Shown here one piece after another: positions 11,896-12,014 of a stretch of DNA of 64,000 nucleotides. A program made the position numbers and the translations under genes. The DNA is taken from the NCBI GenBank assembly GCA_008933995.1, contig WARS01000013.1:10312023-10376022 (forward strand). Direction: 5' to 3'. The notes beneath the pieces were generated by a model. That model saw only the letters and a list, made by a program, of their open reading frames with translations. It was not told the DNA's origin and ran no database searches. Each line of letters starts with the position of its first letter. The first letter of the stretch is position 1. Source of the DNA: Datnioides undecimradiatus (Eukaryota > Chordata > Actinopteri > Lobotiformes > Datnioididae).

Positions 11896-12014
11896 CTTCT
11901 TTCTTTTCGTCTTTCATCCATCCTCTTGTCCAGTGCTGCATATATGGCATCTGCTTCTTCGTCGTCCTTTTCATAGGGCCCACTGGAAAACAAGCTACCT
12001 GCATATCCATTGAA
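11896..12014 (-). pseudogene. prpf6: isolated prpf6-like exon (U5 snRNP-associated tri-snRNP protein)
   Basis: On the minus strand a 119-base block reads in one open frame as [16 protein letters not shown], then [12 protein letters not shown], then [11 protein letters not shown]. From memory this is identical or nearly so to the N-terminal PRP1 region of PRPF6, a spliceosomal tri-snRNP protein. It has an acceptor-like start (TTTATTGTAG|TTC) and a weak donor-like end (AAG|GTCACT), after which the frame stops within three codons. I found no other prpf6 exon on either side: the preceding exon with the DDDDEDLNDTNYDE region and the following EQREKEE exon are absent. It is most likely a duplicated orphan exon with flanking intron, or a misassembled piece. 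A retrocopy is unlikely because the similarity stops exactly at the exon ends. Confidence 0.8.

Follow-up and report, generated by a model that had tools for sequence, protein, structure and literature searches.

An isolated prpf6 exon flanked by unrelated genes: a probable assembly mistake at a TA microsatellite

A lone prpf6 fragment lies between two unrelated genes in the window (the whole 64-kb stretch of DNA analyzed, C315:10312023-10376022). Most likely the fragment is absent from the animal's DNA at that place and reflects a mistake of computer assembly, and it is ordinary for that reason. We put the probability that the block is an artefact of wrong gap filling through a TA microsatellite, and not a selected exon, at roughly 93%. 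Three identical copies of the block are present in the genome assembly, one of them in the true prpf6 gene, and the other two have repeat and N borders. From these observations we infer (i) a gap in the assembly, (ii) a filling step, and (iii) the direction in which the filling ran. Coordinates of the block and its parts are collected in Table 1.

The initial annotation had described an open and nearly unchanged PRPF6 exon on the minus strand, and this description was confirmed. Translation of the window gave 39 codons without a stop at 11896-12014 (-), and all 39 residues (39/39) were identical to human hPrp6 residues 81-119 (PDB chain 3jcr_G, E 5.5e-20). The same peptide matched Pfam PRP1_N (E 4.2e-11). 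TGTAG stands directly before the exon copy and GTCACT directly after it, so that the exon has the AG and GT of splice-like borders. The annotation had also held that the piece was cut exactly at these borders. The copied piece really ends at 11732 and approximately 12149; its borders are not splice sites, because the block includes the 151-base intron 3' of the exon and 13 bases of the next exon, e4.

We compared nine prpf6 exon peptides read at the true locus, e1 to e9, with the window by tblastn (E 0.001), and only e3 was matched. The claim that no other prpf6 exon occurs in the window therefore stood for the nine peptides, with the qualification that the block carries 13 bases of e4. A multi-exon copy was ruled out for the nine exon peptides tested.

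The true prpf6 gene is located on contig C469, where nine prpf6 exon peptides lie in order on the minus strand; the copies in the window (contig C315) and on contig C389 are orphans. When the peptides of exons e1-e5 of C469 were joined and compared with human PRPF6, the joined peptide aligned from its residue 40 onward, through to its end (E 4.6e-127). Nothing in human PRPF6 was aligned to the 39 residues before that point, and the start of e1 is uncertain for this reason. Borders of e1 to e9 at C469 were drawn by eye. A TA array of 31 bases sits between e2 and e3 of this gene, and its copy of the block contains zero N.

Table 1. Features of the copied prpf6 segment and its borders (window positions)
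Feature	Position	Strand	Evidence
Whole copied segment, 418 bases, matching the genuine prpf6 gene (G000:C469) at every base	11732..12149	-	418/418 match
Copied exon e3 of prpf6, the third of those read at C469; 39 codons and 2 further bases	11896..12014	-	Translation, hPrp6 match, tblastn
Copied e3-e4 intron of 151 bases	11745..11895	-	Sequence comparison with C469
Start of prpf6 exon e4 (13 bases), broken off at the N	11732..11744	-	e4 read at C469
Single N, the window's only N; probable leftover of an assembly gap	11731..11731	.	N count
Local (AC)n(AT)n microsatellite on the left side of the presumed gap	11658..11730	.	Sequence
TA array, 31 bases, equal in length to the array in the prpf6 e2-e3 intron; presumed entry of the false fill	12117..12147	.	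Sequence

We searched the genome (581 Mb in 497 contigs) with the DNA of 11740-12110. Among the matches listed, three places (C469, C389 and the window itself) were each 100% identical over 371 bases. Extension of the exact match against C469 gave 418 bases for the window, identical throughout (418/418) and without gaps, and 413/413 for C389. The initial annotation had proposed an alignment to the prpf6 locus of the same genome; the intron flanks were found to be identical, as a segmental copy would show. We then have a second orphan copy of the prpf6 block, at L007:10-422 (G000:C389, near 9778648-9779018), with an N at L007:423. Its repeat and N borders are of the same kind as those of the window copy.

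How far the likeness reaches was assessed by comparing the 64-kb window and 19.6-kb stretches of C469 and of C389 in all three pairings, under a low-complexity filter. In each pairing the block, together with its repeat edges, was the sole match: 421 bases at 99.8% for C469 and the window, 444 bases at 98.4% for C389 and the window, and 413 bases at 100% for C469 and C389. Uniqueness of the block's flanks is thereby established among the fetched loci. A larger segmental duplication was ruled out for the 19.6 kb at C469 and at C389 relative to the window. Within the 19.6 kb at C389, tblastn again matched only e3 of the nine prpf6 exon peptides. A prpf6 paralogue or retrocopy, which would be expected to show further prpf6 exons nearby, was unsupported as well: only e3 of the nine was matched in the window and in the 19.6 kb of C389.

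The 418-base alignment bears on the proposal that the piece is a functional orphan exon, kept by selection and spliced into a local transcript. The open frame and the splice-like borders agree with that proposal. However, intron bases of the block are as unchanged as its exon bases, both being equally identical to C469, and selection is unsupported for this reason; the intact frame says only that the copy is exact, because any exact copy keeps its frame. The existence of a second orphan copy on C389, and the finding that 0/8 other prpf6 exon peptides tested match the window, also speak against a functional exon, whose probability we regard as close to nil. Retention by selection was ruled out on the ground that the exon is not conserved above its flanks.

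We examined the two ends of the copies. At one end, the TA array is exactly 31 bases long in every one of the three copies; GG comes next, and beyond it the sequences diverge. At the opposite end, the window copy stops 13 bases into exon e4 and the C389 copy 8 bases into it, 5 bases apart. Past the e4 end comes one N, and then a TA array of 29 bases in the window or 20 bases at C389. Both orphan copies thus end at a single N that touches a TA array, and the true gene does not. On the TA-array side, there is no N between block and flank in either orphan copy. Both ends of a segmental duplication are expected in sequence free of assembly gaps; this was not so here, as one end lies at an N in both orphan copies, although a real copy beside an unrelated N is conceivable. 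The single N at 11731 is probably the remnant of an assembly gap, although in principle another cause is possible, since sequence withheld from the assembly is likewise written as N.

An N is rare elsewhere. No N was found in 22 other 10-kb stretches (220 kb) of the three contigs, and the same 220 kb held one TA array of at least 16 bases. The pattern (TA)n-TGG occurs at 58 places in the genome, three of which are the block copies and 55 others. We inspected 20 of these 55, each over 750-800 bases, and found no N; the error is therefore not general at such repeats in this assembly. The flanks of the 20 sites were also compared among themselves. Three of these sites (L032, L039 and L047) have stretches in common, 46 to 123 bases long and with identities of 90-100%, which are perhaps a dispersed repeat. 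We note that L042 (C215:1505800-1506599) and L043 (C218:1504580-1505379) share 792/792 aligned bases at nearly the same position, and that C215 and C218 are nearly equal in size, at 1967540 and 1965268 bases. One of these contigs may be a false duplicate, or the duplication may be real.

Taken together, the identity of the copies, the equal microsatellite length, the repeat at the point of divergence and the N at the free end, each seen twice, lead to the gap-fill reading. Each is what a false fill should leave behind: the copy is identical to a source locus in the same assembly, it abuts an N, of which the 220-kb survey had none, and copy and source part at a shared repeat. Three origins had been offered in the initial annotation: a recent copying of exon plus intron, an exon retained under selection, and a misjoin of contigs. 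Of these the artefact branch is favored, because the block breaks off within a microsatellite at one end and at a single N inside e4 at the other, and because this is repeated on C389; the form of the artefact, however, would be a wrong gap fill and not a misjoin.

We propose the following course of events. At the true locus there would be nothing but a compound (AC)n(TA)n microsatellite and, after it, GGGTGTGTG; the assembly would have had a gap within this repeat. A gap filler may have extended the right edge of the gap through (TA)n, using reads or k-mers of the similar array in the prpf6 e2-e3 intron. The fill would then have run on through e3 and the next intron into e4, approximately 400 bases, and would have halted before meeting the left edge, leaving one N. 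A second (TA)n gap, on C389, would have been filled likewise.

A misjoined contig would have a different origin, namely a small prpf6 contig wrongly placed in the scaffolds and not walked into by the gap filler. A block bounded by a repeat and an N would fit this as it fits the gap-fill reading. Nevertheless, both orphan copies lack an N between block and flank on the TA-array side, and the segment is present three times, which one contig placed once does not give. We hold a misjoin to be highly improbable.

We also considered that the prpf6 segment was truly inserted, twice and very recently, into TA microsatellites; replication could, for instance, have switched template from a local (TA)n into the intron array and back. 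The identity of the copies and the (TA)n at an edge common to all three are compatible with such events, and a very recent real copy would be identical too. This account, however, needs two events with ends just 5 bases apart in prpf6, zero substitutions in 418 and 413 bases, and a 31-base TA array of unchanged length at three loci; it also requires that both breakpoints happen to carry a single N of unrelated cause, though 220 kb of other sequence went without one. Hence, we regard real insertions as improbable. The variant in which both orphan copies are real, TA microsatellites having served as switch points for the recent copying of one prpf6 exon segment to two places in this genome, is in our estimation very improbable. 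As in a segmental or exon duplication, the exon was copied along with its intron flanks; unlike in such a duplication, both orphan copies are bounded by a microsatellite and an N and show zero divergence.

A false fill of this kind has partial parallels in the literature. The Pilon paper describes one case in which a repetitive structure led to a wrong partial fill (PMC4237348); the present case differs in that the repeat is a TA microsatellite and that two sites received one and the same source segment. By the same account, Pilon leaves gaps alone where it detects a tandem repeat and by default inserts no Ns, so another tool may have been at work here. A study of vertebrate assemblies reports that false duplications are mostly set apart by a gap and that wrong gap filling sometimes joins them; it also reports exons that were falsely gained (PMC9516828). 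As in those gains, a coding exon would here be falsely repeated beside an assembly gap, but the types named in that account lie within a gene or inside another gene, whereas the present exon stands between two genes and on another contig. The portions available of the GapFiller and DENTIST papers treat repeats and wrong closures in general terms, and in the available portions of the gap-filler literature we found no statement that exactly one N is left.

If the block is a gap-fill error, annotation could create a false prpf6-like fragment at C315 and at C389, and short reads of the true exon e3 would map equally to three places. The case matters as a caution alone: where an orphan exon is clean and free of mutations and has a microsatellite and a lone N next to it, a gap-fill error should be the first suspicion.

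The neighbors of the block were assigned at family level, in keeping with the putative arf3 and fkbp11 of the initial annotation. An Arf family match was found at 9606-9755 (Pfam), and a piece from 16.8 kb joined to one from 18.9 kb matched FKBP_C (E 3e-05). Elsewhere in the window, the minus strand has an open segment of 321 residues at 27974-28936 with zinc-finger-like motifs near its end. Pfam gave no match to this segment at E 0.001; we take it to resemble an Ikaros-type factor.
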